From assembly GCA_963931865.1 (NCBI GenBank), contig OZ007512.1, forward strand, positions 248,001-312,000: DNA of 64,000 nt, given 5' to 3'. Position 1 is the stretch's first letter. Every line of letters starts with the position of its first letter. Under the pieces are notes generated by a model, which made no database searches, had not been told where the DNA came from, and saw only the letters and a program-made list of their open reading frames with translations. The stretch is from Axinella damicornis (lineage: Eukaryota; Porifera; Demospongiae; Axinellida; Axinellidae). Of the stretch, positions 4,937-56,881 are shown piece after piece. The position numbers were made by a program, and so were the translations under genes.

Positions 4937-5011
4937 CTGCTTTGTTTCATAGGTGCTTCTGCTTTAGACAAAGGATCCCTCTCAATGTTGATGTTTGACC
5001 CGTGTTTGTAG
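4937..5011 (-). CDS. Gene 1 candidate exon 5
   Basis: The open stretch lies between an acceptor (..ccgttag) and a strong donor (AGCAG|gtaacagc). Its phases (2 in, 2 out) fit the phase-2 end of the FN3 exon. It would encode about 25 residues, including YKHGSNINIE, that could close the FN3 fold, but the match to a G strand is weak. Confidence 0.4.
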
Positions 5012-8000
5012 CTAACGGTTGAATCTTGCCATTTATTTGTATTAGGATTTACAAAATAATGCGTCAAGCAGTACTTACTCGTAAACTGCGTTCTTAGTGA
5101 GATGAAAGTTGTGGCTGTCCCTAATGCTGTAGATGAAGTGTACTTGGGAACTTTCGACAACTGGTAACGGTGTCAGAGTAGCAAAGTCAGTAGCTGTTTC
5201 GATCTCCACTACCTCACGGATCTGTACAGTATAGCTCAGCACCGGATGTCCACTGTTATCTCTGGGAGCATCCCATGAAACCTTGAGAGCAACTTCACCA
5301 ACAACCACTTCAACCTTGAGGTTCTGTGGCATGGTAGGGGCTATGCATGAGAAGGAAGGGATTTCACCAGCAAATTGATACACAAAATTCAACATACTGG
5401 GGGCCACACAACAACCTCCTCTCAAAACATAGTACACAATTCTACACTCAAGATGGGGAAACGTTTCGCCTTCAGTCCATGCCATCCAACAAGGTAAAGT
5501 CAGCCATCTCATGATCAAGTGAGTTACAATGATATAATACCGGAAATTATTCAACTACTCTCATGCAGTGTAAGTGTTTCAACTTGTCGTTGCTGGTTTT
5601 CTGCCAAGCTAACGAACAGTGAAGCCCTGGCTATGCTTGCTATTCGAAGGAAACTAGAGAAACCAGAGGGCGGACTGTCAGAAGCCAAGTCATTCATCGA
5701 TTGTCTTAAAACTGTTTATTTGCCATGTTCTCTTCTCAACACCTACCGTATATCTTCTAAAAGTTCGGCAGGTTTTTATTAATTATTCATAAGCCTTGCC
5801 AAAATAATTAGAAGTAAAATCGCAAAATTTGTACCAAAATACAGAAGTGCCGAATAATTAGAAGTGTTACCCACGGTCGGTCGGTCGGATTTTTTCCACT
5901 CAAGATTCAAGTCTCAAGATCGAGCAGCTATACCGGTGGGGCGTCTTTCCTCTTGGCTAGCACCTGCGTCGGAATTGTCGGCGTACGAAGCGAACTGTGC
6001 GGCTGCAGGCTGTACGATCGATACCCCCCGGAACTCACCCCGCGTCGTTCTATGTTCATCTGTGTTGACTCTCAGGGTCAGGGCAAGACTCGCGAGTGTA
6101 CTTCAGCGCAGGGCTTTCACTCGAACTGGTCAACGTGGCACGTACATCGAATGCGATCGGTCGACTTCCAGGGGCTCGTGTGCATTGGCGACAGCTAGCT
6201 CAGTGGAGCTTTCACCGCTTGAGGCAGCACCGAACTCACCGATCTCTCTCCTGGCTGGCTCTGGGCTTGTATAAGCCTCTCGGACAGGACGGCAAGCTGC
6301 CGAAAAACCCATTACATTAAATTCCAAAATATTTGGGAATTCCCTTGCCGAAATTTTTTCCCATTTGCGTGAAGGGGTGCCAAATAATTAGGGATGCCGA
6401 ATTTTTAGAAGATATACGGTAGAAGTAGTACACTTCTGTTTGAAGACTAACCTGACAGCGACAGCAATTTTGAGAATTTGTGGTGTGTACGAATATCTTC
6501 AATATATATTGAAACACCAAGGTATTGGGGGTTCAGGTCAACTACACACCCCATGACATTTGTATGTCACAAGTACCAACCAAAGAGGGTGTAGCTACTT
6601 CCTTAGAGTCACATGATACTACTCACTGGGCCCTGGGTTGGATTCAACATCGCCAGCCATCATCAGCAGCATTTCGTTCACCAAACCACCACACTCCGTC
6701 AGTGTACAGAAAATCGCTGATTTCAAGATAGCAGAGTAGCAACACCAAATAGTTCTTGCCTGATGGAAACAAGATGGAGTAGCTAATAATAATATCAAGG
6801 GCGTATCGAGTCGCCGAAGGCGGCAAGAGGGCATGTAACTCTGCAAACAGCAAAATCCAAATCGATTCTATTTATAGAAATCACGTTCTACATTATTATT
6901 TTTGAGATCCACTGGTCTGACATGCTAACCAGGGGAGTCACAGCCACTGTTCCTAAAAATATCCATCCTCTAGTAAGTCAATAAACATTTAATCTAAACT
7001 CACTGCTGTTACCCTGGACGGCGTTTACCACTGCCTTCTCCTTGCCTCAGTTTCGCTAGCAAACTCCGACAAACCGTGTCATTCAGTGGAGACGGTCCTG
7101 AGCGAAGCCTACGGCACCTGCGTGCAATGGCTGCCTCATGTAGGACGGACAGGCACGTTGATTCCAGCCGTCAAAACTTTGATGGCGTCCACTCATCTAC
7201 TCTACGTGCTCTGGCCTGCTCTGCGATATTCCGCCGTTTACATTGTGATTACGAGAGTTACATGCCCTCTTCTCTTTAGGGTAGATGCACCCGTGATATT
7301 ATGAAACACAACATGGTATACACACACAGGCATAGGAATGGCCATGGTCCTCCTCTACATAAGGCAACGTTGGCCCCCGTTCATTGCTATATGCATAGGT
7401 ATAAGAATGGGGGGGGGGGGGGGGGGGGGGCAGAGGGGGAGGGGGGAGTGTGAGGAAGGGGGAGTGGGAGGAAGGGGGAGGGGGAGGAGGGGGGAGGAGG
7501 GGGAAGGGGGAGGGAGGGGGAGGGGGGAGGGAGGGAGGGAGGGAGGGAGGGAGGGAGGGAGGGAGGGGGGAGGAGGGGGAGGGGGGAGGGAGGGGGGAGG
7601 GAGGGGGGAGGGAGGGGGGAGGGAGGAGGGAGGGGGGCATTCAATATCATTTAACTGCTACATTCTTGTGTTCAGACCAATGAGAAATATAATCTCCAAG
7701 GATACCACTGAGTTTGTGCACAAATGGCATAGCTATAAAACTGTCATCAGGAGACATTAATTGAGTAATCTACTCGGTGAGCAGTTAAGTCCTGATGTAC
7801 CCCCAGCACATACAGTGAATTGACCTACCCTTGATTTTCACTTGACAGTCAACAAGGCACAAATTACAAGTAACTTGGGGTTGTGTACTGCTCAGCGTAC
7901 ATGTATGTTGCATGCTGTTTAAAGTGAAAAGCCCACCTTATTTGGTAGCTTGGCATCTTTCTGACCTGGAGTCATCGCGGATTGCGTCTGGAGTCGTTTG

Positions 8001-11000
8001 TGTCCGGTGGACGTGATCCGCTAGCCAATTATGTCCGCTAGCGGATTGCGTCCACCCAGATTAATGGAAATGGTCCGGATTCGCGGATTCTGTCCGTTCA
8101 ACCGTCCAATGAACAGCCTGACGTTCGGAGGCGGGAGAGCTAGCCTGATGGGGATGTGTATGCACAGGCTCGTGCTGACCTAGCCTCGGCCCCAGACCCA
8201 AACCCACCCCAGCACGGATCGCATCTATAGTATCACGCGATCATACTAGATGCGATCTGTGCTGGGGTTGGTTTGGGTCTGGGACCAAGACTAATGCTGC
8301 CCTGGATGAATTCGTTTGCCACCTACTCAGTCAAGTGCCATGCACGTTGGAAGCTCTCGTGGACTGTTCAGTTGGAGCCACCAACAGAAGAGAACTGCAA
8401 TTGTAGTTCGTGTAGGTAGCTAAGTGAGTGTCATAGCGTGACTATGCCTCTTATAACTGAGTCAATCCCATCAAGACAATTAATAACTGAACGTACATGT
8501 AAGGGAGGACACCAGCGGCTAGCTGATAGTGTCTGAGCGGACATCATATATGCATCGCTAGCAGATAGCGTCCAGGCGGACACCATCCGCTAGCAGATGG
8601 AGTCCGGGCGGACACCATCCGCTAGCAGATGGAGTCCGGACGGACACCATCCGCTAGCAGATGGAGTCCGGACGGACACCATCCGCTAGCAAATAGTGTC
8701 CGGGTGGACACCACCCGCTAGCAGCTACCGTCTGCACTCCGGACACTATATCCGCGAAAACGGACACAAACTGCTAGCATATCGGGTCCGGGGCGGACAC
8801 TATCCACGGCCGGACGCGATTCGCTGTGACACCGGTACTTCCTCCATGCTTTTTCGTGATACTAATAGTCTTCATGGTCTGTCCGCACTAACCCTTATGA
8901 TACTGAGCTCAAAGCAAATTTTCAATATCTGTACAGCCTTGTTATACAACATGTGAACCCCCCACCTCCAGCAGGTTGGCCCATACTATTCACTCAGTGA
9001 AAACTCACGGTCCTGATTCCATAAGTGCACAGGATCCCAATCAGTATCCGGGGGAACACAATCAACAGAGGCACTCCACAATAGCTTCGATGAATTTGAA
9101 TTTGGATACGAAAATGAGCATGATTCGCAGTTCTTGCCAGCCACTTACCAGAACCTGCAAGAGGTAACCTAGAGAGACAGGAATGCAGATCAGAGAGATA
9201 GAACTTCACATTTCACAACTCATCAATCAAGTTGCAAAAATTGGGTGAGCCTGAAAAGGCTTCATGCAGTTGTGAAGATGGGAAGAGGCAGACCACCTCT
9301 TAGGGATTCCCTTAGAAGTACAGAATCAAGGGTGCTTCCCCCGCCTATTGCGGCACAGTGCCCCCTCCTATTACAGCACAGTGCCCCCTCCTATTGCGAC
9401 ACAGTGCCCCCTCCTATTGCGACACAGTGCCCCCTCCTATTGAGGTACAGTGCCCTCTCCTATTGAGGTACAGTGCCCCCTCCAATATTGCGGCACAGTA
9501 CCCCCTCCTATTGCGGCACAGTGCCCCCTCCTATTGCGGCACAGTGTACCCTCCTATTGCGGCACAGTGGCCCCTCCTATTGCGGCACAGTGCCTCCTCC
9601 TACTGCGGCACAGTGCCCCTTCCTATTGTGGCACAGTGCCCCCTCCTATTGTGACACAGTGCCCCCTCCTATTGCGGCACAGTGCCCCCTCCTATTGTGG
9701 CACTGTGCCCCCTCCCACTGTGGCACAGTGCCCCTTCCTATTGCGACACAGTGCCCCCTCCTATTGCGGCACAGTGCCCCCTCCTATTGCGGCACAGTGC
9801 ACCCTCCTATTGCGGCACAGTGGCCACTCCTATTGCGGCACAGTGCCTCCTCCTACTGCAGCACAGTGCCCCTTCCTATTGTGGCACAGTGCCCCCTCCT
9901 ATTGCGACACAGTGCCCCCTCCTATTGCGGCACAGTGCCCCCTCCTATTGTGGCACTGTGCCCCCTCCCACTGTGGCACAGTGCCCCTTCCTATTGCGAC
10001 ACAGTGCCCCCTCCTATTGCGGCACAGTGCCCCCCCCCTATTGCGGCACAGTGCACCCTCCTATTGCGGCACAGTGGCCACTCCTATTGCGGCACAGTGC
10101 CTCCTCCTACTGCGGCACAGTGCCCCTTCCTATTGTGGCACAGTGCCCCCTCCTATTGCGACACAGTGACCCTCCTATTGCAGCACAGTGCCCCCTCCTA
10201 TTGTGTCAAAGTGCCCCCTCCTATTGTGGCACAGTGCCCCCTCATATTGCGACACAGTGACACTCCTATTGCAGCACAGTGCCCCCTCCTATTGCGGCAC
10301 AGTGCGCCCTCCTATTGCAGCACAGTGCCCCCTCCTATTGTGTCAAAGTGCCCCCTCCTATTGTGGCACAGTGCCCCCTCATATTGCGACACAGTGACAC
10401 TCCTATTGCAGCACAGTGCCCCCTCCTATTGCGGTACAGTGCCCCCTCCTATTGCGGCACAGTGACCCCTCCTATTGTGGCACAGTGCCCCCTCCTATTG
10501 TGGCACAGTGCCCCCTCCTATTGCGGCACAGTGACCCCTCCTATTGCGGCACAGTGCCCCCTCCTATTGCGACACAGTGCCCCTCCAATTGCGGCACAGT
10601 GCGCCCTCCTATTGCGGCACAGTGACCCCTCCTATTGTGGCACAGTGCCCCCTCCTATTGCGACACAGTGCCCCCTCCTATTGCGACACAGTGACCCTCC
10701 TATTGCAGCACAGTGCCCCTCCTATTGCGGCACAGTGCGCCCTCCTATTGTGGCACAGTGCCCCCTCCTATTGCAGCACAGTGCCCCTCCTATTGCGGCA
10801 CAGTGCGCCCTCCTATTGTGGCACAGTGCCCCCTCCTATTGTGGCACAGTGCCCCCTCCTATTGCGGCACAGTGCCCCCTCCTATTGTGGCACAGTGCCC
10901 CCTCCTATTGCGGCACAGTGCCCCCTCCTATTGCGACACAGTGCCCCTCCTATTGCGGCACAGTGCGCCCTCCTATTGCGGCACAGTGACCCCTCCTATT

Positions 11001-11860
11001 GTGGCACAGTGCCCCCTCCTATTGCGGCACAGTGCCCCCTCCTATTGCGACACAGTGACCCTCCTATTGCAGCACAGTGCCCCTCCTATTGCGGCACAGT
11101 GCGCCCTCCTATTGCGGCACAGTGCGCCCTCCTATTGTGGCACAGTGCCCCCTCCTATTGCGGCACAGTGCCCCTTCCTATTGCAGCACAGTGCCCCTCC
11201 TATTGCGGCACAGTGCGCCCTCCTATTGCAGCACAGTGCCCCTCCTATTGCGGCACAGTGCCCCCTCCTATTGCGACACAGTGACCCTCCTATTGCAGCA
11301 CAGTGCCCCTCCTATTGTGGCACAGTGCCCCCTCCTATTGTGGCACAGTGCCCCCTCCTATTGCGGCACAGTGCGCCCTCCTATTGCAGCACAGTGCCCC
11401 TCCTATTGCGGCACAGTGCCCCCTCCTATTGCGGCACAGTGCCCCCTCCTATTGCGGCACAGTGCCCCCTCCTATTGCGGCAAGGTGCACCCTTCTATTA
11501 CGGCACAGTGCTCCCTCCTATTGTGGCACAGTGCCCCCTCCTATTACGGCACAGTGCTCCCTCCTATTGTGGCACAGTGCACCCTTCTATTACGGCACAG
11601 TGCTCCCTCCTATTGTGGCACAGTGCCCCCTCCTATTGCGGCAGAGTGTTGGGGACTTGAGCATGCCCTCATGTTACATGATACATCTCTTACCTGGCTG
11701 TTAGATAAGGGTAGAAAGTGTTGCTCAGAATTCTGTTTGAATCTCCCCCCTCCTCCGGTCCTGTTGTTCTGTGGCCATATTGGAACACAGCCATCAAGAC
11801 AGCCAGGGCTTGGAGTAGGACCAACCTCTTCCTCGTCTTCACGTTCCACATTCTGACAGG
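4937..11860 (-). CDS. Gene 1: signal peptide - basic exon - 2A - FN3 gene, 3' end not resolved
   Basis: Exons read on the minus strand are 11694-11860 (X; ATG at 11849-11851), 9009-9168 (Y), 6627-6759 (2A), 5079-5340 (FN3) and probably 4937-5011. Coding lengths and phases fit throughout: X ends in phase 2, Y ends in phase 0, and the 2A exon ends in phase 1. The 2A motif ends at about residue 150. The downstream product would start P-T-P-T-M-P and enter an FN3 domain. The X-Y intron holds the 9340-11645 minisatellite. The reading frame is open after 4937 but I could not find the next exon, so the 3' end is missing or lies outside the window. FN3 modules bind partners but have no single function. 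The architecture is seen directly; skipping activity is inferred. Confidence 0.65.
5079..5340 (-). CDS. Gene 1 exon 4: fibronectin type III domain
   Basis: The exon starts after ctcatgcatag and ends at TACGA|gtaagtac. It encodes MPQNLKVEVV, then KVSWDAP and NSGHPVLSYTVQIRE. These are the FN3 B-strand tryptophan, the P-x-x-N-S-G turn and the C-strand tyrosine. The start phase (1) joins exactly to the base left after the 2A proline codon, giving NPGP-T-P. The C-terminal strands are diverged, so the domain is clear only in its first two thirds. Confidence 0.75.
5744..6421. mobile_element. MITE-like element in Gene 1 intron
   Basis: The left end taccgtatatcttctaaaag is mirrored at the right end by tttttagaagatatacggta, and cggaattatt/aataattag words recur just inside both ends. 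The element is about 680 bp, with no transposase. It sits in the intron between the 2A exon and the FN3 exon. Confidence 0.7.
6627..6759 (-). CDS. Gene 1 exon 3: 2A-like ribosome-skipping exon
   Basis: The exon has the acceptor ttgtttccatcag|GCAAG and the donor GGGCCCA|gtgagtag. It encodes 44 residues with a hydrophobic middle and ends in MAGDVESNPGP, a canonical D-V-E-x-N-P-G-P motif. In this family the ribosome fails to form the G-P bond and releases the upstream chain. Paralogous exons lie at 38378-38531 and 55715-55868. This copy is seven residues shorter and more diverged upstream of the motif, while the motif itself is unchanged, which suggests selection on it. Confidence 0.85.
7408..7637 (+). 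repeat. G-rich polypurine tract
   Basis: About 230 bases of almost pure G and A (runs of G, then gga, gggagg and ggga words), within the Gene 1 intron between exons Y and 2A. The strand transcribed as Gene 1 pre-mRNA would be pyrimidine-rich here. The proline-rich and glycine-rich ORFs in it are low-complexity artefacts. Confidence 0.9.
8174..8295. repeat. Inverted-repeat hairpin element
   Basis: The arm with ccagacccaaacccacccca and gcacggatcgcatcta is mirrored by agatgcgatctgtgc and ggggttggtttgggtctggg, around a short centre near 8233. A related foldback lies near 42420-42690. It is probably a small MITE. Confidence 0.7.
8505..8830. repeat. 32-bp tandem repeat (ccgctagc family)
   Basis: Units of about 32 bp containing ccgctagcagatggagtccg followed by gacggacaccat repeat with decay toward both ends. 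The ccgctagc / gctagcgg word also occurs near 8025-8050. The repeat lies in the Gene 1 intron between exons Y and 2A. Confidence 0.8.
9009..9168 (-). CDS. Gene 1 exon 2 (Y): basic linker upstream of the 2A exon
   Basis: The acceptor is cctgtctctctag and the donor is AGGACC|gtgag. The one-base start completes the AG left by exon X to give Arg, and the exon ends in phase 0 to match the 2A exon. It encodes 53 codons starting LPLAGSGKWLARTA. The copies at 38825-38996 and 56710-56881 are 57 codons and more basic, with an RRRRTH run. Another frame is open in this copy but carries a stop in the 38.9-kb copy and has the wrong end phase. Confidence 0.7.
9340..11645 (+). repeat. 23-bp minisatellite array 1, about 100 copies, in X-Y intron
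   Basis: Tandem units have the consensus attgcggcacagtg followed by ccccctcct. Units differ mainly at the CG (cg, tg or ca), at the first base after cagtg, and by loss of one C. The unit contains ggcac-a-gtgcc, a short inverted repeat. The 23-bp unit has no stop in any plus-strand frame, so three overlapping long ORFs with a 23-residue period appear. They are not genes. The array lies inside the intron between exons X and Y of Gene 1. Confidence 0.95.
11694..11860 (-). CDS. Gene 1 exon 1 (X): start codon and signal peptide
   Basis: After the acceptor tgatttatttgcag comes CCTGTCAGA and then ATG at 11849-11851. The frame gives MWNVKTRKRLVLL, then the hydrophobic ALAVLMAVF, then a polar stretch, a typical basic-plus-hydrophobic signal peptide. 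The exon ends GCCAG|gtaagag in phase 2 and joins exon Y to restore Arg. The paralogue at 41290-41456 has identical coding length (158 bases). The exon is too short to stand out as an ORF. An acidic second frame is also open but does not fit the splice phases. Confidence 0.7.
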
Positions 11861-17734: not shown

Positions 17735-18048
17735 TCATCGATCAGTTTCCACACCTCTTTGGCCTTGAAACTCCTCTTCCAGCTTGTCTGCCACTCCAGC
17801 TCCTCCAATAATTTCATTGTCTTCTCTCAAGGCTTGACAGAGTTCTTCAAGTGTGGGATGTGACCTATCAAGCCACCTGTGGAGAAGGTCCCTCAGGAAA
17901 GCTGGTGGACGAGTGTTATCAGGAGTATTCCGAATAGTAGGCACAAGTGATGTCATTCCAAGCTGATCAGCAAGTGCAATCCAGTAGGCAGCAACAGGTT
18001 GAATCAACCGTTTCAGGACCCCCAAGTCATCAAGTTTGAGCAGGGTTG
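17735..18048 (-). CDS. Spare terminal Death-domain exon of Gene B
   Basis: The acceptor is aatatctaactgcag. The frame TLLKLDDLGVLKRLIQPVAA runs through AFLRDLLHRWLDRS and ends ..RGVETDR-stop at 17735-17737. Length (314 bases) and acceptor match the terminal exon at 18422-18735. It has the Death-domain pattern of spaced Trp/Leu positions and the EELCQAL helix. It could be an alternative last exon of Gene B, or the leftover of a duplication with the linker at 18201-18251. Confidence 0.65.
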
Positions 18049-44382: not shown

Positions 44383-44747
44383 CTACTTATCTCCATACAT
44401 GCTATAGACGCTGATACGTAGATGCTCCAAGTTTAACATCTGATCAGTTTCCACACCTCTTTGGCCTCGAAACTCCTCTTCCAGCTTGTCGGCAACTCCA
44501 GCTCCTCCAATTTCAACATCTTTTCTCAAGGCTTGACAGAGTTCTTCAAGTGTGCGATGTCCCTTCATTAGCCACCTGTAGAGGAGGTCCCTCAGGAAAG
44601 CTGGTGAAGTATTATTATGCGGTGTGCTCTGAATAGTAGCCACAAGCGATGTCATTCTAAGCTGATCTGCAAGTGGGACCCAGTGAGCAGCAACAGGTTG
44701 AATCAACTGTTTCAGGTCCCCCAAGTCGTCGCATGTGAGCAGGGTCG
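44383..44747 (-). CDS. Gene 3 exon 8: terminal Death domain
   Basis: The acceptor is cacatctaactgcag, phase 1. It contains TLLTCDDLGDLKQLIQPVAA, HWVPLADQLRM, AFLRDLLYRWLMKGHRTLEE and LCQALRKD. After VETD it runs 18 residues longer than Gene B because the stop is lost, ending SMYGDK-stop. The Gene B stop position reads Gln here. Confidence 0.8.
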
Positions 44748-47700
44748 CTGCAGTTAGATGTGTGCATAACACATGATTGTAGTGGAAATCTGAATAAGCA
44801 TTCTAGTGAACCATTGGACAACAACATCAGATGACAACATCAGATAACAACAAGATGCCGATGACAGCAACACCACATGACAACAACATTAGATGACAAC
44901 AACATCAGATGACAACAAAATCAGAAAGCTATGAAATGAGAGCAGCATGGAATACAGTGGCCTGGGAGAAAGGATAGGTTGGTTACCTGTTGCCTGGGGT
45001 TGGGGAACTTGTGGATCACATGCAACAGCACCATCTCCTTGGTCCTGATCGAATGAAAGAGAACGCAATACTATAACCACTGTGATACATAATCAGTAAT
45101 TTTCAACCTCTCGAAGAAGCTAAGAAACAAGGAGAATGCTATTAACCAGGCTCAGTCCCATCCCATCCCTATAAATTCTACATACATTATTTCAATGGGA
45201 TGGGACTGAGCCTGGTTAATGGCATTCTCCTTGTTTCTTATATCTTTTTCGAGAGGTTGAATAATTCCGAATGTGACAGGTCATCACTAAATCCTTTTTA
45301 ATTTTTGGGAGAAAATTTTTTACCTCTAGTACTATATATGTACCTGCCAATTTATACCTCATCACCACGTGGTTGCTAAGATTGTAGACATATAGCCACT
45401 CTTCACACCTGATAGGCGTACGTAGTCACAGTTCACACCTGATACAGCTCTTCCAAGGCATGTCACCTATTTTGTACACTACATCCAGCCCAAAGAGTGG
45501 ATGGGACATATATTTTCGAGTACACAATTAGTCTCGATTATATGCCCCCTCAAAAGTTTTGCTACATTTATGACACTGCCAAGGTTCATGTTCACAGTTA
45601 CAAAAGTACAAACGATCGCCAGTACTGTTCGTGGTCATCATGCGTGGTCTCCCTACATCAGCAAGAAAAGCTGACACTTCAGCTCGAGGGCCATGACAAC
45701 TTCGTTGTAGCCATCCTCAAGAACAGCAATACTGAACCATGGAACATTTCCTGGTAAGAGTGGCAGCGAGATGACTTTTACCGTTGGCGTCAACGGTGAC
45801 TACTCGATCTGAGAGACTATCTGCAAAGAGTTGCGCACGTGCAGGTTAGATATTCCAGAAGACGCTCACCAGGGGGCGTTATAACGAGTCAAACTACCCT
45901 GTGCAGGAAATTCGGCAAAAAAGAGGGGGAGGGCGTATTTTCCAAGGGGGCGTATTAGCGGGATACTACGGTATAAGTCTTCTATAGTCTTAGCAACCAC
46001 CTAGCAACGGGCTATAACTGTACATATGGGACTGCATAGACGGCTCTATCATCGTCAAATTTGCTCTGGGACCATGCCGTTCGTACCCCTGTTCAGGTCC
46101 GTTGAGGGACCACTTCAGATTTGAATACTGCGTTATTTCCTGTGTAGACTACACCAATGGGCACTCCTCTACGCAGGAGAATTGGCAAAAAACCAAATAC
46201 AACTTCAAGCGGTCCCACCATGGGCGAGCAAGCCATGTGGACACGGAGCAACCAGTCCCATATCTACAGGTGGTTTTTCCTGTGTCATCCAATTCACTTT
46301 GCATTAGGCAGTATTGCATGAATAGGAATAACACCCACAAGCAGTAGCCACTATAGCTACGTATTACTTCCATGAGCTAACCTTGAACCAGCTCTTGTGC
46401 TTGACTTCAAGGAGGAAGTCCTCCCCTTTGCAATGTGGCTTATGGAAGCATTGCATATCCACTGGTGCAGCTTCCACCATCTCTTCCTTCGTCAGGCAGA
46501 CAGCAGAGTGTGGCTGTCCTCCAGGCTGCAGACCACCAGGACAGTAGAAGCCAAATTGCCAGACAACATCTCTCATGTGGGGGTACTCAGAAGACACCTT
46601 ACATAGAGCTTTCCATAGCTGCTGGCGACAAGAGTTCAAGATGCTGAAATCCGTCACCTGTGGTGCTACCATAGGACTTGCTGGAAGGAGACGGAGCTCA
46701 AGGTAGCTAGGATGCTGACGAAGCTCCACCGACCTAGTTTGCTTGCGTGTTTGAATGACTCGAAACTGGATTCTATTACTAAACCGTTCTTCTTCTTTCA
46801 AGTCCCAGGTGTCAGACATCTTGACCACCAGTGCTGGAAACAGACCAAGAGGGACATAGCCAGTGGAGCGAGGGACAAACAGGAGGGGGGCGGGGTTGAG
46901 AGAAGAGAGAGCAGTAGGGTTACAAGCTTCACTGACCACAGAGGAGTCAGGTTGCAGAAGGCAAGGCATGAAGTATCTTCTGGTACCTGCTGCATTACGG
47001 ACACTCTTGTAGAGAATGTAGCAATCCTGGAGAAGAGCTACAATCTCTGATGTAGGGATGGGGTCAGTAGATTTAGTGGCACAGATGGTCTTCATTAGGT
47101 CATGGGGGATTTCCCCAGTGGCTCGAATTGACTTTGCAGTCTGAATGTGGCCGGGATTGCAGGCAAAGGCGAAGAGGAAGGTTCTTGTGACAGGGTGTAA
47201 GATGATGTTTGGGTCACAGATGACCTTGTCACAGAGACCTGGTACTGTAGGGTAGTACAGTAGAGTACCGTAGTGCTTGTGGATATAGCGAAGGATGCCA
47301 TCTTCCCACAGTAGCTCCTCCTTCCCTAGTAGCTCTTCCGTTTTGATGCCACAAGCCACTGCTACCTTCACACACTCCTCCACAGTGCACCATCCTGGCT
47401 CTCTCTCGTACTTGGCACGGAGGAGGAGGTGAATCAATAGCCATGCAGTTGCTATAGGCTCTGGCTGGAACCTGGTCTCGATGACGGTAAGGATGACTTT
47501 CCGTAGCTCATCAATATCCCCTTGATCCTCACTCATGTTGTCCAGAGTGGCTATGTACTTCCCCTCCTCAATTTGAAAGAGAATGTCACTCGCAATGAAG
47601 CTTTCTAAAGCTTCCTGAACAGATCTTTCGAGAGTAAGGACAGCTTGCTCTTTGGTCTGGTCAAGGTATGTCCCTACGAGCAGTGCGACAGGCTTCTCCT

Positions 47701-50700
47701 TGTTAGCTCCGGACTGGAGTGATGAGATACTGCAGAGTATGCACTGGAGGACCTCCCTTGCAGTGAACACTGACTCATACTTAATGGAGCTAGGACCCTC
47801 CCTCCCTCGAAACACAACATTATACGTCTTGTCAAGGTCATGGGTGAGGTTGAGGAAGATAAGATTGAGTGCTCGTCCTTCGAGCAGTAAGGGGAGGATC
47901 TCATGGCACTCGGGGTGACCTCCACAGTCCATCATATGGAGGATAGTCATGTCCTCAATTACCTTTAGCTTCTCCCTGACACTGTCCCAGTCTCGTGCCT
48001 TGACTAGGCTGGTCAGAATAGCTTGTTCTTCATCGAATGCAGACAATTGTGAAGTCAATACATTGTCATCTTGCTCTTGAGCAGCATCGCCGCTATCTAC
48101 ATCAAACTGGGAGGAACTGGAGGCCATGACAAGAGAGGCTGTGTTGTTAGAGGATGACTTGAGAATGCGACTATACAGATCCTGTCCCTGTTGCTCAAGA
48201 TCCTGGTACTTCCACTCAGGTTTTCCTCCCACACCGGTACCAGTAATCATCACCGACTGTTTCACTGTCGTTTGGTAGACTTCAACTGTCAGTGGTTTTT
48301 CAAAACCAGTGCTGGGGATTGGGGGATCACTTTGGTCAAGACACCGTAACTGGTTGGAGAGACGTAGCATTGTAGCGGTCTTCCCTGTACAGGGGAGGCC
48401 ACAGAAGAGCATCTTGAGTGAGTTCATTTTCAGACTACCTTGTTGCTGAATGTGTCGCTGGATCAGTCTTCTGTCCCTAGCAGCAACTGTAGGTGTAACA
48501 CACACGGCACACTAACACAGCAGTAGCAGATATTAGGTGAGTACCAATATGTGATCCGCACAGAAATTAGCATACAGCCTGCATTGCTACGTACTATTCA
48601 TAGCAAATGGCGACATTTGAAGCTGTCCTGTAGCTTCTGTCCGTTTCACTCCATCGACCTATTATAGCTTTCAACCGGATGAGTCACAAGAAGGGAGGCT
48701 AGCTAGCTAAAGTTATGTACTGAACACGTATGGGTACTCACAGTACACTGGAGGACAGGTAACATAAATAGAATCTCGCGTTTTCTGCGTGCTGTGTTTT
48801 GGCAACTGGATAACCGATTGCTTTGAAAATTGGTATGTGGCAAGTTTAACGTCTAAGCTAATAATATTTTGTAAAATCAGGAGCACATAATGACGTAGCG
48901 AGCGGAAGGAATGAAGGAGCATGAAACAACCACGCGAAAGATTAAAAATGGAAAACTTTCCCACGGTAGTTCTTCGTTACTATTTTTAGCATGGACGTGT
49001 ATCGTTGTTTTTCTGTGATGCCACGGGCCAAATCTCGATGGGAGAGAGAGAAGATAGTGTCCGTAAGTGTCGCGGGGTGTTTCCCAGCAGTCATGAACTC
49101 CAGAAAAGCAGAAGGGGTCGGAGACTCTACACAGTCAATTTGAAATGACCTCTCTCATCAAAAGACGACAGTACTTTAAATTATTGACTACTTTTAAATT
49201 CCTTAAAGGTTTCTCTTATTTTCCCGGTGGTTTTGTTATAGTTAGACTATGGCCTTGAGTGGTTTATGGGAAATAACCACGAGAGGCTGTTTATTTAGAC
49301 CACGAGGCGCAGCCGAGTGGTCTAAATGAACAGCCTCGAGTGGTTATTTCCCATAAACCACGAAAGGGCATAGTCTAACTGGCTTAGACTATAGCTACCT
49401 GAATTAGAGATCCTTGCACGCTCCAACACTCCAGAATGCGCTGAGCCATGGTCTAATTTCCATAAACGCTGAGTCATCATGCTCCAATTTCTATAAACCC
49501 ACAGCTGTTGCACGGCTGCATGGCTTCGGAATATAAACCACAGGCGGTGCCTTTGATTTGTATGGCTGCTATAGTCTAATTTGTACTTAGATTGTCTCCT
49601 AACCTTAGAACCTCTAATTGTTTTCAACTGTTACAACCCTTTGCTAAGTGTTCGTCTTTTTATAATTCTTTTTTTGTACAGTCTGTTTGTTTGTGGAATT
49701 CGTTGTCTAGTGATGTTGTTTGTAGCAGTAGTATTAGTACCTTTAAGACTAAAATTAAATCAATTTACTTATAGGTCTTGTGTAATTCTTTTTTGTTTGT
49801 GCCTTTTTTCCCCTTTTTTTGTTTGTGCCTTTTTCCCCCTTTTTTTTCTTTGTTCTTTTTTTTCGAAGTCCCCTAGATTAGCCTTGGGCTATGGGACCGA
49901 CTGAGCTCCTTCCCTTGTTGGTCAGTTTCATTAACAAAAAAAAACAAACAAACAAACAAAAAAAAAAAAAGGGGCGGTTATTTCCACTAGTCGAGACGCC
50001 CGCTTGACTGTGTGAAGCATCGTCATACAGCACTTTCTCGAGGTCTGTCACTATACCAGTATGTCATCCCCCTGCCTCACTACCATTGGAGTCTTGATAC
50101 TGGCCTTTTCTCTGTCTTCTAGTAGTCATCCTTTGTGAAGTCTCCGTATGTGTGTGAGCTAAAAATAGTAATGGGACTACCATGGAAAGTTTTCTATTTT
50201 TAATCTTTTGCGTGGTCGTTTCACGCTCCTCCCTTCCTTCCACTCTCTACCCCATTATGCGTTCCTGCTGGATATGTCGTCAGCGGGGCACCTATATTTG
50301 TATAAGTACATGTAGTGTGTGCAGGTAGGAAGAGAATTACTCGTGTAGTTCACCTTGTGAGAGCTGCTCTGATGTTTGTGGTGCTGGAGGATCACTAGAT
50401 AACGACGGGTTTTCCACACCTGCAGATGATATAAAAGGTATAACCTTGAGATGTATTATAGAAGAGTGTGAGATACAGTAAGAGGTGCATGTAAAAGCTA
50501 TTTGAAGATCTGGTTCATTGCCTACTGCAGGCTTGCTTTAGGTTAAAAGGTAGTGTTCCACCTACTGAGATTTTCTGATTCCAAAATATGTTTGCACAAG
50601 GATGACAGTTATTACAGGTGTGCCCAGCAATAAAAGGTTGGGGGGGAGAACATTGGCGGCAAAGTACGGAGGCGCGCAGCGGCCGCAAAACAGCCGCGGG

Positions 50701-53700
50701 GTGTTGATCAGTATTATCATAACTAAGTTACTTTGACTGACTGACTGACTACACAATAAACTGCTGCTTTAGAGGTAAGTCTTGACTCACAGTTGATAGC
50801 TAGATCAACTTGAAGACCTGCCTCTATATAGACAGTGTACATTCATGTAGTCTACGTACGTTTAATTTTCCTAGGGCGGTGTTGCCCCCCCCCCCCCCCC
50901 CCCCCCCAGTACCGCCACTGACAGTTATAGCACAAGGGCTATAATTCAGGGGTAAGTAGGATTAGGGAGAGTTGCACTCCATATCAAGACATGTATACCA
51001 TGACTCATTCTGAGTGTCCAAAATGTCCCCTGGTATTAGCCTCGTTCCCAGGCCGTTGTTAGCAGCCGCATACGTGACCTTTGAACCGCCAAGACCAAAA
51101 CGAGGCTACCCTGGGGACTACCTGCTCAAGTTATGAGGTCCACTACTACGTACTAGTACTAGCTACTACTAGTGGAATGTGTGACATTGTGGGGCGAGCG
51201 TGAGTGAGTGCATGTGTGAAATTAGCTACGTGGAACAGTTGTAGCTACGTACAAGACTGTCATCAGAATGTGACATGAGAACAGCTCAGGTCACAGAATA
51301 TCACACCAAAAGTACACTGTCGCATATGCACAACACAGAGTGAGGCTAGCTGAAGTAGTCTAGCTGCGATATGGATATGGCAGGTATTAAACACAAAACC
51401 TATAGCTCAGTATGCATGCTGCGCACTGGTCCAGCACACCATGTGCTCTGCAGGACACGTACACGTAGCTACAGCTCTGAAGTCAATGAATAGGTAGGTC
51501 CACCAGCGGTGTTCGTCTTTGCTGTCGCCACTGGGGAGGTACAGAGGTAGGTAGGTCACGATCAATCTGTATCTTTGTTGTCGCCATAGTCTCGGTGCCA
51601 GACTCTCGCGCATGGCGGAGATTTACGGTACGACGTCCGGAAATGAATGCATGTACGTTATATTGCACGCGCCGGATTTACGGTATGGGAGACAGATCGA
51701 CATACATAATTATACGTTGTACAGCGCCATATAGCGCCGCACGCGAGACTACGACTAGTGTGGGGCTCGCTCACGCTCACCCAGTTAACAGTTTTTCCTG
51801 GTGTTCTGACTTTTACCAATTATTGCATTCCACATTGTAACAGAATATGGCCCAGAGACACCAGACTCTTTTCCCCCTCTGCGCTTCTGGCCACACCCCC
51901 AAACAGGAAAAAGCATCTGGCCTGCGAGACTACACTTAAGTATTGTGAGCGCAAGTGGGTGGTTTCTGGCCTATACCTGACACTGTTCAGATAATGAAAT
52001 AGTAATTTCAAGTGTGGGTGTTTGGAAAAATTTATGGACGCATTACCATAATGTCCCAATAGTCTGCCCACCATCAAAACTAACCCCACTCCCTTTTCGA
52101 GACATGTCAGTGAATGTTGCTCAAAAGTATGCCCCACCCTATTGCATACCTCAAGAGGTGGAATAGGTCTTGAATTTGAAGAAGTACAGTGAATGAGGTT
52201 AGAGTAACAAAGCACTCAGTCCTGTACCAGTGTGTAACATGCACACATCATGTGCTCTACACGTTTCTATCTTTTGTGTGCAATAACCTAGTACAATATT
52301 ATAGTACTGTAGGCGCTCTAATTATGCGTCCTTTCTAATTCTGTGTCAAAATTCAATATCTCAAACCAGGAGCGCTCCTGCTCAAACCGATAATTTCCAA
52401 TAATGCATCACACGATTATAACGGCAGCATGGCAGCTAGCTTGAAGCACATACCGTTGAATGGCGAAGAGGGCTCATCACATCACTGCCTGTGAACGGTG
52501 ATGTAAAAAGACACAGTTGCGATATGGCTGGGACATCAATAGAAATTTGGTCAGCCAAACGGCGACGAACTTCGACGCATGATTAGAAAACACCTCGCAA
52601 GGTACTAAAGTCAGACGAGTGTAGACAAGGCTATTGCATAGCGGTTGTGTTTGTTCCCGGTTGTCAGACTGTCGCTGCCTTTTCTCCTACATGGGGCGTC
52701 CATATCCTGGGGCACAGAATACATAAGTGAGTTGCTGTCTCGTACCTTTGCATTTCAAAAATAATACTTTTTTTGAGCGATGCATAATTAGAGCGCCTAC
52801 GGTAGTGCACACACTACAGATTTCTGTGATTGGCAAGTCCTGAAAATGGTCTGCATGCTCCACGTCATTCAAGCACTCCTGCTGTGTCTTGTTTGCTGTT
52901 CCTGCAGCTACTCACCCAAAGAGAGTGTTACTGCTGACTACAAAATTTGATCAGGGAGCAGTGTTAGCGCCGTTACATCAGCCTTGTACAGAGTACAACA
53001 TTTTGCATGAGAGTATAATCCCAAAACTATGTATGTAAGCCAACCCCCTTGTTGAATAGCCACAAAAGTTCTTGCCGATGAGCACACTATCAGTATTTGC
53101 TTGCATGACTCACCATATTCTCTGCGAAGACCATATTTCCTGCAGAGGCGGTCTGCTTCACTCATATCACCTGACTGAAGCATGGCTTGGACCAGCTGCT
53201 GGTATGATGCTTGTGGACAGTTCATCAGCCACGTACTGAACATTTCTAGCTTGCAACGTTCCTGATCTCGTGGGTGACTCCTTTCGATGGTATAGAGGTG
53301 GTAATCTTCAATGTCCAATAGTAGTCCCAGGTTATGCCAGCTTTTCACTCTGACCTTAACCAGATCCTTCAGGGTTGGCCTGGGGGCTGCACAAACAAGA
53401 AATGCATAATCATCTATGGATGCAACGATGTTGGATAGTGCTAGCAATAGGAACAGAACATTATGTCATTCACTTGAGGACTCCTGTTTATCAGTACGTC
53501 TACTAGAGGCAAAAACGTTTCTCCGAAAAATTAAAAAGGATTTAGTGATCACATTCGGAGTTAAACTATACTTCAATGAAATAATGCAATCTGATTGGTC
53601 AATTGAAGGGGTTTAAATCACTTATTACCCTTGCAATTTCACTTATACACCTGTAGTTTCTGTAGTTGTAGCATTGTAGACCATGCCTGTATAGGGCGCA

Positions 53701-56700
53701 AGCGTCTTGCACGCTAGCGCTGGAGCCAGACGAGTACATGTAGAGTGGAGCTAGACTTCGTTGTCTACTACGCATAACGTCTCACCTCCGTAAGTGTCAT
53801 GGGGCAGGGCGTATTTGGTGCAATCCCAGACTCTGGTTCCGCTTCGGAATCACAATCCCTAACACGAGGCACGAGTATGTAGAGTTGTCAGGTAGCGGAT
53901 GGTGAGAGCAGCTGCTACAAAACTTGCCCATCTCTGCGCGAAGTCTTTTCTGACTGAACGGTTGCTAACTGTTTTGGTTGCTACTTGCTAATACAGACAG
54001 CGATTTGATTGGCTGCAAGCTGTATAGAATAAATACCTTAAACGATGAAACCCTTGGGGCCTACGGGATTTAGATTCCCTTGGAAAACCTATAAACACCC
54101 TTGCGCTTCGCCCCCGGATGTCTATATAGTTTCCATGGGTCTCTAAAACCTGTAGACCCCTCGGTTTCATCGTTTAACTCCACCTCTCAAAAAAGAATTT
54201 AGCTTCATTCTGTTCCCATTATTCCATGCATTTTTGATGTTGCTGTTGTGATCAATGTTTATTGTCTTCGCAGACGAGGGGGGGGGGGGGGGGGGGGGGG
54301 GGGAATTCACCCTTCATCAGATCAGAGAGCTCGATGGCAGTCGTGTAGGTCATGTTAGGTATATCCAGTGTAACGAGAGAAGCATGACAAAGAATGATGT
54401 CATTCAGCTACGGACTAACGTCTTGGAGAGAGGTCAATTACCATTGAAAACCATCCTTGGTCAATCTTGCAGTATTTAAACCCCATCCAAATACTATGAC
54501 CAATGGAAAGACCTTTGAACCCTAAAGTTAAGGTCCAGGCCAATAACCAAATTGAGAGTCCGAATTCACTCACCATCCACAGGTGGCTGTGCATTGGAGC
54601 AGTATTTCCGCTGTAGTTCCATTGCCAGTCGGACCTCCCCAATGAAAGGGCTCTTAAGGGCTTCGACCAGGGCCTCCCATGTGGGATTATCACTAGTTGT
54701 CAACCAGGTCCTCAGGAGCTCCCTAAGCAGGTCACCATGGTCATTGTACTGGACCATAAAGGAGTCCAAAGTCCCCACGTCCACTCGGAGCTGGAGACTG
54801 AGGTCATACCATTTGGCACGACATGGGAGAGTGTCCTTGAAGACTGTAGGAAGGTCACTAAGGCTCAAACCTGAAACAGTAGATGAGAGGAAACAGTTAC
54901 TGATACAAGCACACACGCTGGTTAACCAAAAGTGAAACTGTGCAATATAAAGAGTAACAGGACTACCGTGGGAAGGTTTTCAAAATGTAATCTATTACCG
55001 GTAATGGTCATTGCATGCTCCTTGCCTTCCTTCTGCTCTTTACATCATCATGCGCTCCTGATACTATAGTATAATGTTTCTAAATTGAGACAGAGAAGAA
55101 TTACTGTATACCGTAACGCTAATAATTTATGAGAGTAATAAATTAAGCCTTTTTTGGGGCACTAATGGAATTTGTAATAATAATATGCAATACTATTGCC
55201 TGAAACAACATTTTCCTGTGAACAGTATTAGAGCTGGAACCATGTTCGCCAGCATATCGGCCAATAGCAACTCTCTGCTCGCTGCTGGAGACAGTATAGC
55301 CTTTTCGTTCACACTGTCCTCTGTTGTGGTCGCTCTGTCGGTACCTGTGATACAGCTGCATAGGCTCCTCTCGCACGTGACTAATTCGCTGATTCCAGAG
55401 TATTGCACTGCGTAGAGAGCTCTTGAGGAGTGCCACAGTGAAGTGCTTTTGACTCCACGGCAACATAAACGTCAGGCACTGTAAGTCACATAGACTCCAC
55501 ATAAGCATATACACACATATCACTATGGTTACCGTACACTTGGAATACTTTGGGTGTGCTCTACTTGGAATTACATACTTTGCACTTGTAGCGCATGCAT
55601 AATAGAAGTGTTGTGGGAGAGCTTTGCCATGAGGGTATGCTTCCTCAGAGACACCAGAGAAGAGGTACTGGGTGAGTTTAGTGTTAATGGTATGATACAT
55701 GTACAAGCACTCACCGGGTCCTGGGTTGGATTCAACATCTCCGGATATCATCAGCAACATTTGATTCACCAAAGCACCATACTCCGTCAGTGCATAGAAT
55801 AGCACCGACCTCAAGATCAGTTGGTAGAGGTAGAGCTTATGAGAGCAGTAGCACCAAACAGCTCTTGCCTGATGGAAACAGAGGTGTAGCATAGTTCACC
55901 TTTGTTACACAGCTATCATTTATGTCACTGCAACTTCTACTGCCACAAGCGCCTTTTGATAGAAGAGGCCTACAAGACTTCATAATGGCTTGGGAGGGGT
56001 ACTCGCCCATAACATGTGCACTGCCAATCAACTACATACTGACATTGGGTACCAATCATATTGGCAGGAACTAACTTTTGAACATTGGGATCAAGTCTCA
56101 AGGGATACTAGTGCATACGTGGTTGACCACGCAGAGATGCCTCGCGGGAAGCTTTGATACAATTTGGCAGTTGCAGAACATAACCACGAGCGATAGCGAG
56201 TCTCTGTGAACGGTGAACGTCAACTTCAATATGCCTTCCTAGTCTCTTGCGATCAGCCGCTCTCGCAGTCTCCCTCCTCGCCTCATCAGTTCTCCCTCGA
56301 TGTCGCTGCACTCTTTGCCTTGTCAATCGTCGTCTCCTGTCAGAAACCGACTCCTACTCATCCATTTTGTACACCAGTGACAAATGACAAAGGTGAGATC
56401 ACATGGTGCGCGTGCGGGTTGCATACGTAATTTATGTGCTGGGCCACAATGCGTTACAGACGAATATATATAGTCGCACTAGCCCAGATTCGACCTCCAC
56501 ACTGCACAATTAGTTGCCTCACTTCCCGCTCAGCAATCATGCCATACCCGGCATATCACTAGTGCTGACCCACCATACCCAAACCCCAAACAAAAAATTA
56601 TGATGTCAAAAGTTACTTCCATACAGAGCAAATCAATACAAGCAGGGTGGCCCATTCTACGAAATGACTAATAGTGTTAAAATTGTAGTGAAAACACAGA

Positions 56701-56881
56701 ATAGCTCACGGTCCTGATCCCAGCAGTGTACAGGATCCGAATGAGTAGGGGGAGCATCTTCCGCAGTGACATTCCACGATACCTTCGGTGGGTTCGTCGA
56801 CGACGTACACGAATACCAGCAGGATTCATACGAGCAGTTGCTGCCAGCCACTCACCAACAGCAGAACTGGCAAGAGGTATC
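44383..56881 (-). CDS. Gene 3: 2A - Death - Death - Roc/COR - Death gene, start exon outside the window
   Basis: Exons are 56710-56881 (Y), 55715-55868 (2A), 54574-54870 (Death 1), 53114-53386 (Death 2), 50354-50419 (linker), 46382-48486 (Roc-COR), 44987-45044 (linker) and 44383-44747 (Death 3 with stop). The 3490 bases give 1162 residues after the split first codon, with every phase fitting. Exon X is expected beyond 64000, after the 57073-63358 minisatellite. Skipping at NPG-P would free a cytosolic receptor-like protein with three Death domains around a Roc-COR GTPase, a plausible oligomerising signalling hub. Roc-COR and Death functions are family knowledge; the role here is inferred. The G4 motif is degenerate. 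Confidence 0.78.
44987..45044 (-). CDS. Gene 3 exon 7: linker
   Basis: Between tctttcattcgatcag and ACAG|gtaacc, 58 bases encode DQGDGAVACDPQVPQPQAT. Phase 0 in and 1 out match the Roc-COR and Death exons. The homologue is the spare linker at 18201-18251. Confidence 0.65.
45103..45260. repeat. Palindromic element in a Gene 3 intron
   Basis: The arm tcaacctctcgaagaagcta, then agaaacaaggagaatgctat is mirrored by atggcattctccttgtttct and tcgagaggttga around a centre near 45180. Mismatches are few. Confidence 0.8.
45460..45973. mobile_element. Diverged copy of the 23333-24089 element
   Basis: Shares ttttgtacactacatccagc, the AILKNSNT coding stretch and the right end gggggcgtattagcggga then tactacggta. 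The left end is eroded. Confidence 0.65.
46382..48486 (-). CDS. Gene 3 exon 6: Roc-COR GTPase with an altered G4 motif
   Basis: The acceptor is tgtgttacacctacag and the donor is GGTTCAAG|gttagc. The 2105 bases encode 701 residues. The P-loop GLPCTGKT is at 48377-48400. Switch II reads DCGGHPE (47909-47929) where Gene B has DTGGQPE. The G4 position reads GTYLD (47660-47674) where Gene B has GTHKD, so the usual Lys that packs on guanine is gone. The COR-like part keeps WLLIHLLLRA, YIHKHYGTLLYY and VICDPNIILHPV. Nucleotide binding may persist, but guanine specificity or hydrolysis may be altered. Confidence 0.85.
49241..49379. repeat. Palindrome with about 63-bp arms
   Basis: gttagactatggccttgagt, then ggtttatgggaaataaccac and gctgtttatttagaccac are mirrored by the right arm with a few mismatches, around a centre of about 14 bases. 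Confidence 0.85.
49580..49971 (+). mobile_element. LINE 3' end with A-rich tail
   Basis: The plus-strand frame from 49592 contains FYNSFFVQSVCLWNSLSSDV and SISTFKTKIKSIYL, the conserved last residues of non-LTR ORF2. It continues through a 3' UTR to ggtcagtttcattaac and an A-rich tail (49937-49970). Only the 3' end is present. Confidence 0.75.
50354..50419 (-). CDS. Gene 3 exon 5: Ser/Pro linker
   Basis: 66 bases between ttatatcatctgcag and TCACAAG|gtgaac, phase 1/1, encode VENPSLSSDPPAPQTSEQLS plus flanking residues. It joins Death 2 (ending REYG) to Roc-COR (starting VAARDRR). It is too short to stand out as an ORF and was found from its splice borders. Confidence 0.6.
50886..50907 (+). 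repeat. Poly-C tract
   Basis: A run of about 22 C in a Gene 3 intron. From 50420 to 51780 there is otherwise only an eroded tagcctcgttcccagg foldback at 51038-51107 and no coding signal. Confidence 0.85.
51790..52005. other. Conserved intron block shared with 25030-25235
   Basis: Same sequence as near 25.1 kb (cttttaccaattattgcatt, aacagaatatggcccagaga, gtgggtggtttctggcctat), in the equivalent intron of the paralogous gene. Confidence 0.65.
52305..52804. mobile_element. Complete MITE with terminal inverted repeats
   Basis: tactgtaggcgctctaatta then tgc at the left is mirrored by gcataattagagcgcctacg then gta at the right. The element is 500 bp with no transposase. A right-end fragment occurs at 3241-3292. 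Confidence 0.8.
53114..53386 (-). CDS. Gene 3 exon 4: second Death domain
   Basis: The acceptor is cttgtttgtgcag and the donor is GAATATG|gtgagtc, phase 1/1. It contains PRPTLKDLVKVRVKSWHNLG, LLLDIEDYHLYTI, LEMFSTWLMNCPQASYQQLV and SGDMSEADRLCRKYG. It is closest to Gene B's exon at 25421-25681. Confidence 0.82.
53845..53970 (-). other. Conserved block upstream of Death 2 (pair of 25940-26062)
   Basis: Strong similarity to the block upstream of the Gene B Death exon, including the minus-strand frame MGKFCSSCSHH then LPDNSTYSCLVLG. Its preservation, when most surrounding intron sequence has diverged, is notable. Confidence 0.45.
54279..54303 (+). repeat. Poly-G tract
   Basis: A run of about 25 G in the intron between Death 1 and Death 2 of Gene 3. 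Length is uncertain, as in any assembled homopolymer. Confidence 0.85.
54574..54870 (-). CDS. Gene 3 exon 3: first Death domain, directly after the 2A
   Basis: The acceptor is catctactgtttcag and the donor is GTGGATG|gtgagtg, phase 1/1. Joined to the 2A exon it reads NPGP-G-L-S-L-S-D-L. It contains RAKWYDLSLQLRVDVGTL, LRELLRTWLTTSDNPTWEAL and VEALKSPFIG, ending in a Gln/Pro tail. There is no counterpart in Gene B. Confidence 0.82.
55715..55868 (-). CDS. Gene 3 exon 2 (of those visible): 2A-like exon
   Basis: The acceptor is ctctgtttccatcag|GCAAG and the donor is GGACCCG|gtgagtgc. The 51 codons read ARAVWCYCSHKLYLYQLIL, then hydrophobic sequence, then LLMISGDVESNPGP. It is nearly identical to the Gene 2 exon. 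Reading through the donor gives a longer chance ORF to 55143. Confidence 0.87.
56100..56700. other. No supported gene (Gene 3 intron between Y and 2A exons)
   Basis: A minus-strand frame at 56108-56326 is Arg-rich (TRQRVQRHRGRTDEARRETA), possibly a transposon-derived fragment, but I cannot place it in a family. Nothing else is recognised. Confidence 0.35.
56710..56881 (-). CDS. Gene 3 exon 1 (of those visible): exon Y
   Basis: The acceptor is ttcctctctctag and the donor is AGGACC|gtgagc. The 57 codons start IPLASSAVGEWLAATARMN, then VRRRRTHRRYRGMSLRKM and LPLLIRILYTAGIRT. Phase 2 at the start requires an upstream exon like X, which is not in the window. An in-frame ATG lies just upstream in this copy only. 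Confidence 0.7.

Follow-up and report, generated by a model that had tools for sequence, protein, structure and literature searches.

A signal peptide-2A exon cassette, duplicated in a sponge genome and predicted to splice onto several classes of Death-domain proteins

The 64,000-nucleotide stretch of the sponge Axinella damicornis analysed here, termed the window (C8:248001-312000 of a 226 Mb genome, the assembly covered by all genome-wide searches below), carries three minus-strand genes whose 5′ ends are built alike: an exon X with a signal-peptide-like sequence, a middle exon Y and an exon ending in a 2A (StopGo) motif. On balance we regard X-Y-2A as probably a duplicated 5′ cassette, with predicted phase-1 splicing onto varied Death-domain proteins of immune type, that would likely split the product into a signal-led leader and a cytosolic protein. 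A paralogous family reusing one 2A cassette had been proposed in an earlier, sequence-only reading of the window, and it is borne out by 29 copies, 27 of them with X, by a phase-1 exit and by three payload classes. That reading is partly confirmed: the cassette holds up and proves larger than described, but the window itself is less diverse in payloads than claimed.

Within the window the tetrapeptide NPGP occurs in frame exactly three times, always on the minus strand, with ends at 6628, 38379 and 55716. The cassette exons of the three genes are:

11694..11851, minus strand: gene 1 exon X, signal-peptide-like, reading MWNVKTRKRLVLLQALAVLMAVFQYG..., with donor GTAAGA and phase 2 out
9009..9168, minus strand: gene 1 exon Y, with AG/GT sites, phase 2 in and 0 out, among the 18 loci aligned in frame
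6627..6759, minus strand: gene 1 2A exon, ending ...LLMMAGDVESNPGP, then one nucleotide and GTGAGT
41290..41447, minus strand: gene 2 exon X, placed by splice site and similarity
38825..38996, minus strand: gene 2 exon Y, with AG/GT sites, aligned in frame
38378..38531, minus strand: gene 2 2A exon, ending ...LLMISGDVESNPGP
64224-64381, minus strand: gene 3 exon X, just past the window end
56710..56881, minus strand: gene 3 exon Y, with AG/GT sites, aligned in frame
55715..55868, minus strand: gene 3 2A exon, ending ...LLMISGDVESNPGP

AG or GT stands at all 16 splice positions of the eight junctions checked. Gene 1 has GTAAGA after 11694, ag before 9168, GTGAGT after 9009, cag before 6759, GTGAGT after 6627 and tag before 5340; gene 2 has GTAAGA after 41290, ag before 38996, GTGAGC after 38825, cag before 38531, GTGAGT after 38378 and cag before 37850; gene 3 has GTGAGC after 56710, cag before 55868, GTGAGT after 55715 and cag before 54870. 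The frames join throughout, with X leaving in phase 2, Y entering in 2 and leaving in 0, the 2A exon entering in 0 and leaving in 1, and the payload exon entering in 1. The earlier statements that Y and the 2A exon are common to the three genes, and that all junction phases fit, thus stand. Exon X had been seen in two genes; this is right for genes 1 and 2, but the corollary that gene 3 has no signal exon is rejected by the X found outside the window. The gene 3 leader runs for 160 residues to NPG, the last Pro of NPGP being residue 161, and has a computed isoelectric point near 11; its most hydrophobic 15-residue stretch, residues 10-24, lies where a signal peptide would.

Some repeats accompany these exons. 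Downstream of the gene 3 X, at 64110-64172 of the window coordinates, its 3′ end is partly duplicated, and this copy reads SRILSSNFLPYLTA. In each of the three genes the X-Y intron holds a 23-bp minisatellite, CCCCCTCCTATTGCGGCACAGTG (9338-11648, 40361-41205 and 57073-63360), whose translated frames are also found near the C2 and C6 cassette copies.

Genome-wide, a degenerate DNA pattern for the 2A motif gave 108 + 101 = 209 matches, as against 1 + 0 for the reversed pattern, and a chance origin of the three window motifs is rejected by this comparison. Used as a protein query, the 2A exon matched 36 places; after removal of one overlapping gene 2 (L042) and six weak ones, 29 strong copies remained, on contigs C3 (13), C8 (7), C10 (6), C1, C2 and C6 (one each), so the family is not restricted to a single locus. 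Exon X was searched for separately and gave 35 matches, of which eight short ones were dropped. Comparison of the two match lists pairs 27 of the 29 2A exons with an upstream X, and each of the 27 strong full X matches with a downstream 2A exon, in every case on one strand. The two 2A exons lacking X are C8:1532509, where the upstream stretch is partly N, and C6:13972875. In 29/29 2A exons a GTGAGT donor stands one base past the NPGP codons, in phase 1. The 2A-exon tree places gene 1 beside the C6 and C2 copies (98/91), apart from the five other genes of the C8 cluster, which make up a clade of their own (99/100); a further clade (100/100) unites the C10 set with C8:1532509.

The eight short exon X relatives (C13:6687630-6944153, C12:10111650 and C7:5306359) are none of them paired with a strong 2A exon of the cassette family, and may represent a second gene family sharing the exon X signal peptide. 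The orphan 2A exon C6:13972875 adjoins frames that by eye resemble a mobile element.

The motif itself is well preserved. Its octapeptide is DIESNPGP in 14 copies, DVESNPGP in 7, DIQPNPGP in 6, and DIQSNPGP and DIHPNPGP in one each, so that the core (D/G/C/N)(V/I)ExNPGP is present in 21/29, including all three in the window. Position 14 (p14) is accordingly Glu in 21 copies, Gln in seven and His in one. The DIQP and DIHP copies (Gln six, His one) are the seven members of the C10 clade, C8:1532509 included, whose loci read carry NACHT payloads; the eighth departure, DIQS, is C8:358669. Upstream, the hexapeptide LLM(M/I/V)(S/A)G is found in 29/29 exons, followed by D at p12 and, in 22/29, S at p15. 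This is the Leu-rich hexapeptide ending in (A/S/C)G that StopGo activity is described as requiring, and taken with the D (p12) and S (p15) that follow, it fits L-rich motifs 2 and 6 as defined in PMC12846837. One motif 6 example is active according to that source, which also gives His at p14 more than 95% activity and cites figures of 56% or 26% for activity left after E14Q.

In a first pass the 2A and Y exon borders had been accepted only if in frame, and the test was repeated without that condition, taking as acceptor the best polypyrimidine-AG whatever its frame. The frame was kept in 29/29 2A exons and in 18/18 aligned Y exons, and also in the 14/14 X exons found in the stretches examined. 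The Y sample derives from 29 loci, eight of which have no match in the stretches examined and three of which were excluded (L018, L022 and L032: spurious, partial and broken); since the 18 were located by protein similarity it is a favourable one.

Selection is uneven along the leader. For the last 19 codons of the 2A exon (LVNEMLLMxxGDxExNPGP) the ratio of nonsynonymous to synonymous differences (pN/pS) is 0.21 (bootstrap 0.09-0.56, 29 copies), as against 1.04 (0.72-1.65) for the rest of the exon, which locates the constraint on the StopGo element. Exon Y gives 0.85 (0.67-1.12, 18 loci) and exon X 0.79 (0.53-1.34, 14 loci). The skipping element is therefore conserved, and the leader holds its frame and drifts or diversifies. 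For Y of the C10 group the ratio is 2.37 (1.12-11.83, 5 loci), a value based on few synonymous differences.

The payload of gene 3 had been read as Death-Death-Roc/COR-Death, and this order is upheld by matches to the Pfam Death family PF00531 and by a structural model:

54574..54870, minus strand: first payload exon, Death (PF00531, 23.3 bits; phase 1-1)
53114..53386, minus strand: second Death exon (PF00531, 29.8 bits; phase 1-1)
46367..48486, minus strand: Roc-COR exon, 3′ end not fixed (phase-1 acceptor; AlphaFold model)
44386..44802, minus strand: last Death open frame (PF00531, 25.4 bits)

Pfam gives the Roc-COR exon COR-A under cut-off and no Roc match; in the PDB, a profile of the sequence matched only LRRK2 and Rab, both weakly. 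Its AlphaFold model (38 sequences; predicted local distance difference test score, pLDDT, 77.5; predicted template modelling score, pTM, 0.81) has as best folds LRRK1, the Chlorobium Roco protein (CtRoco RocCOR) and LRRK2; as modelled, the exon thus encodes a Roc GTPase followed by COR, the arrangement that defines ROCO proteins.

Gene 2 had been assigned a Death payload, which proves too narrow; the idea that Death stands alone is rejected by the exons that follow downstream:

37552..37850, minus strand: first payload exon, Death-like, 3′ end not fixed (PF00531, E 5.2e-4, 20.5 bits, under the cut-off of 22.6; phase-1 acceptor)
28179..34506, minus strand: three tandem Ig + Death units, two found by Pfam Ig_3 and Death, the third by tblastn
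34204-34506, 31359-31664 and 28528-28833, minus strand: Ig exons of the units (phase 1-1)
33858-34108, 31013-31263 and 28179-28429, minus strand: Death exons of the units, 3′ ends not fixed (Death at 28182-28523 under cut-off)
25421..25681, minus strand: Death exon (PF00531, 29.4 bits; phase 1-1)
19471..21612, minus strand: Roc-COR exon, open frame (COR-A E 0.0047, under cut-off; 28% identical to the gene 3 Roc-COR)
17738..18778, minus strand: two Death exons (17738-18076 by PF00531, 25.9 bits; 18425-18778 by tblastn)

Up to gene 1 the order is therefore Death, three Ig-Death, Death, Roc-COR, Death, Death, with no 2A exon in between, and because of this continuation genes 2 and 3 seem to carry one kind of payload. 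The claim of three different effector modules in one locus is an oversimplification, as genes 2 and 3 both reach Roc-COR and Death exons. PF00531 is above cut-off at 17738-18076, 25311-25727, 31013-31300, 44386-44802, 52941-53465 and 54569-54979, and under it at 28182-28523 and 37552-37929; NACHT was not found by Pfam in the window payload exons tested.

Each tandem unit (28179-34564) spans about 2.8 kb; the three are near-identical, and Ig identity to the middle copy is 96-98%. A frame that by eye resembles the end of a non-LTR (long terminal repeat) retrotransposon reverse transcriptase lies between genes 2 and 1, at 15576-16151 on the minus strand.

For gene 1 one candidate payload exon was read, with two Roc-COR exons some 6-13 kb further downstream:

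5079..5340, minus strand: candidate first payload exon, FN3-like (phase-1 acceptor; donor GTAAGT, phase 2 out)

Payload variety sits on other chromosomes, and the loci read, those of the window included, fall into three classes: Roc-COR, ankyrin and NACHT, each with Death. At C8:358669 the payload gives Death at 21.4 bits (just under cut-off), Death at 31.6, FN3 at 46.1 and a Roc-like match at 19.1 (cut-off 27). On C3 a Death-type exon match lies downstream on the same strand at 13/13 loci (in L044 Pfam Death reaches 16.9, under cut-off), with a phase-1 acceptor in the 9/9 loci where it was read, and ankyrin repeats follow in 3/3 loci read further. In the C10 clade Death and NACHT are found in 4/4 loci read, of seven. 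Some 10-14 kb downstream of the C2 copy come Death, a ZU5-like match (20.0 bits, cut-off 21) and a second Death, a candidate payload by position; the C1 copy (L056) is followed by a long frame without any Pfam family, and the C6 copy (L049) shows no match to the domain set. With payload labels on 26/29 tree rows, given by cluster from loci read in part, the least number of payload changes on the 2A-exon tree is three; three classes need at least two on any tree. Six (in five places) of the 65 Roc-COR matches listed genome-wide fall in the C8 cassette cluster, so most Roc-COR genes seemingly lack the cassette.

Exon phase offers a route to this variety. The three Ig exons and the Death exons 54574-54870, 53114-53386 and 25421-25681 are all phase 1-1; the FN3-like exon of gene 1, phase 1 in and 2 out, is not. 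Since the cassette exits in phase 1 one base past NPGP, such a module can follow it with the motif untouched, and module exchange through matching phase-1 borders is what we infer from these sequences.

Relatives were sought in a protein database with a profile from 18 of the 29 2A exons. Among 1541 candidate proteins, 114 had E ≤1 and 44 had E <1e-7; some resemble this genome's own copies. In 90 of the 112 relatives that have NPG(P/Q), and by reading in all 44 best, this is followed by (G/S/R)(E/K), the tail that an N/GTGAG or N/GTAAG donor at the same place would give if the gene caller read through it. In P0125, from a 1,360-base Joint Genome Institute (JGI) contig, the end of Y and the 2A exon are joined in frame just where the junction was predicted; it is either a spliced or an intron-less copy. 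Five further proteins (P0171, P0174, P0178, P0183 and P0197), on other, mostly large contigs, have a related 2A exon with its own start, MKKRVAEAMTWAQDQLCSLRGRTAVRLGVLAVFVNEMLLMMAGDVEPNPGP, and hence a similar StopGo end behind a different leader.

Under the dual-product reading, the signal peptide of exon X would dock the ribosome on the endoplasmic reticulum (ER). About 130 residues on, the L-rich tract with D(V/I)ExNPGP would block the glycyl-prolyl bond, as motif and selection suggest. The basic leader of about 160 residues would then enter the secretory route, by analogy with results described in yeast (PMC2978324) and sea urchin (PMC4981915), and the same ribosome would resume on a cytosolic protein starting with Pro and carrying Death domains with Roc-COR, ankyrin or NACHT. 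Unskipped chains would remain fused and enter the ER, and by such failed skips one gene would deliver identical signalling domains to two compartments. The proportion of skipped chains is probably adjusted to the payload, judging from Glu at p14 in most copies and Gln or His in the NACHT clade. It may also depend on docking, since in artificial signal-plus-2A polyproteins some upstream contexts in the translocon inhibit 2A (de Felipe et al. 2010, PMC2978324). This reading is partly supported, in that it would fit the motif, the selection pattern and published signal-plus-2A behaviour.

Several observations weigh against it. The same translocon inhibition (PMC2978324) might let the fused form dominate. 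The leader outside the last 19 codons is without significant purifying selection, and being near neutral may be functionless as a peptide; in C8:1532509 the frame of Y is lost. The continuation of gene 1 into FN3, earlier claimed, retains its phase-1 acceptor at 5340, but the fn3 match reaches 23.6 bits, under the Pfam cut-off of 25, and is absent from a three-frame Pfam scan of the downstream region, in which FN3 and Death were both missing and the known Roc-COR exon alone scored, weakly, for COR-A and AAA_18. The link of gene 1 to its distant payload exons is predicted from strand and order, as it is on C10, where 5-16 kb separate 2A exon and payload. Finally, the full gene 3 cassette had no match among 901 candidate proteins, a weak negative because the database looks like single-frame gene calls and is unlikely to hold spliced genes.

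Three other explanations deserve weighing. In the first, which we consider unlikely, skipping at the 2A is slight or absent in vivo and each gene makes one fused secretory or membrane protein of signal peptide, Death and other modules. The Death, NACHT and Roc-COR domains of known proteins act in the cytosol, and strong purifying selection limited to the last 19 codons and a canonical octapeptide in 21/29 copies also speak for skipping. In favour of the fused protein are the intact signal-like exon before 27/29 2A exons, the Q or H at p14 in 8/29, and the inhibition of 2A by translocon-engaged upstream context (PMC2978324).

In the second, less probable still, the leader belongs to a short gene or isoform of its own, which ends after the 2A exon or retains the intron there (several copies read NPGP-SE-stop), the payload exons having their own promoters. 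Genes 1 and 2 and some relatives do have a stop within a few codons past the donor, the joining of 2A exon to payload is predicted from sequence alone, and the C10 distances of 5-16 kb are long. Yet such a leader would have no evident use for a skipping motif at its end, nor would it account for GTGAGT at the identical base in 29/29 exons, the matching tail in 90/112 relatives, or the phase-1 acceptors with which the following Death-type exon begins in the nine C3 loci read and the C8 genes.

Very unlikely, finally, is a functionless cassette, a decaying mobile-element fragment (2A motifs occur in retrotransposons too) segmentally duplicated beside immune genes, as tandem clusters of copies, the C6 orphan without X near mobile-element-like frames (by eye), other 2A motifs of the genome in a tandem repeat array and the near neutrality of most of the leader might suggest, for the frame is kept in 29/29 2A, 18/18 aligned Y and 14/14 X exons, pN/pS is 0.21 at the 2A end, the donor is kept in 29/29, and the broken-Y copy C8:1532509 illustrates what real decay looks like.

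The closest precedent for the cassette is SpNLR2A of sea urchin, a 26-residue N-terminal sequence on NLRs that is signal and 2A in one, the skipped product being cytoplasmic and the fused product exocytic (Roulston et al. 2016, PMC4981915). Both systems set a StopGo-type motif in the N-terminal part of innate-immunity proteins. Unlike SpNLR2A as described there, the cassette has its signal exon X separate from the 2A exon, with Y in between and the 2A end some 130 residues later, and no single oligopeptide of it acts as both; it stands before Roc-COR, ankyrin and NACHT payloads, and no NLR payload was recognised among the window exons tested. The artificial constructs of de Felipe et al. 2010 (PMC2978324) share with it the order of a signal-led upstream protein, 2A and a signal-free protein, but the cassette is natural. 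From the L-rich class of viral StopGo/2A sequences in PMC12846837, which it resembles in D(V/I)ESNPGP (21/29), LLM(M/I/V)(S/A)G and D at p12, it differs in its spliced genomic setting, in the exon border one base past the motif and in p14 (Q 7/29, H 1/29).

On the payload side, the modelled Roc-COR fold of gene 3 is like that of the ROCO proteins LRRK1, LRRK2 and CtRoco, but kinase and leucine-rich repeats (LRR) were not seen in the gene 3 stretches tested, and Death domains (in gene 2 also Ig) and a 2A leader are present instead. Sponge NLRD genes (PMC12909245) are a similar case of Death + NACHT expansion in an early animal genome; the main text of that source has zero occurrences of ‘NPGP’, ‘StopGo’ and ‘signal peptide’.

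Other 2A motifs of this genome lie outside the family. In C4:4237584-5236105, a second 2A family comprises 46 2A motifs in 1 Mb with NACHT frames in the cluster, and 40 of the 46 have a same-strand Death match within 7 kb downstream among the matches listed. At the two C4 loci that were read, MVVGVILLLLVLSGD(I/V)ETNPGP forms a hydrophobic signal-2A like that of sea urchin, its donor lying four bases past NPGP, so the sea-urchin type of signal-2A seems to be present in this genome as well. The window cassette family is distinct from it, with separate signal, middle and 2A exons and several payload classes. At C1:5419195-5425713 eleven 2A motifs, mostly spaced by about 690 bases, form a tandem array with frames that by eye are retroelement-protease-like. 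Rao and colleagues have reportedly surveyed 2A motifs across viral and cellular proteomes. In the full-text literature, the titles and abstract openings among the matches listed describe no sponge, ROCO or ankyrin protein with a 2A leader; an earlier mention in Rao et al. 2025 (Cell Rep 44, 115822) is possible.

According to PMC12846837 cellular genes rarely use ribosome skipping; here one genome has 209 matches to a 2A pattern and one StopGo-type cassette common to three immune-type classes, an arrangement explained by exon phase. As predicted here, signal peptide and 2A as separate exons on several payload classes are what is new relative to the sea-urchin precedent. A broader reading, possible though doubtful, is that the cassette is a general two-compartment switch captured by NACHT, Roc-COR and ankyrin Death receptors, in which ER docking would set skipping and the mRNA would report translocation, with a fast-evolving basic leader outside, a death-fold protein inside and p14 setting the ratio for each class. 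If working, the cassette would be a native system for competition between signal peptide and 2A on one nascent chain, and its phase-1 exit past NPGP would be a simple route for attaching two-compartment expression to a new receptor.

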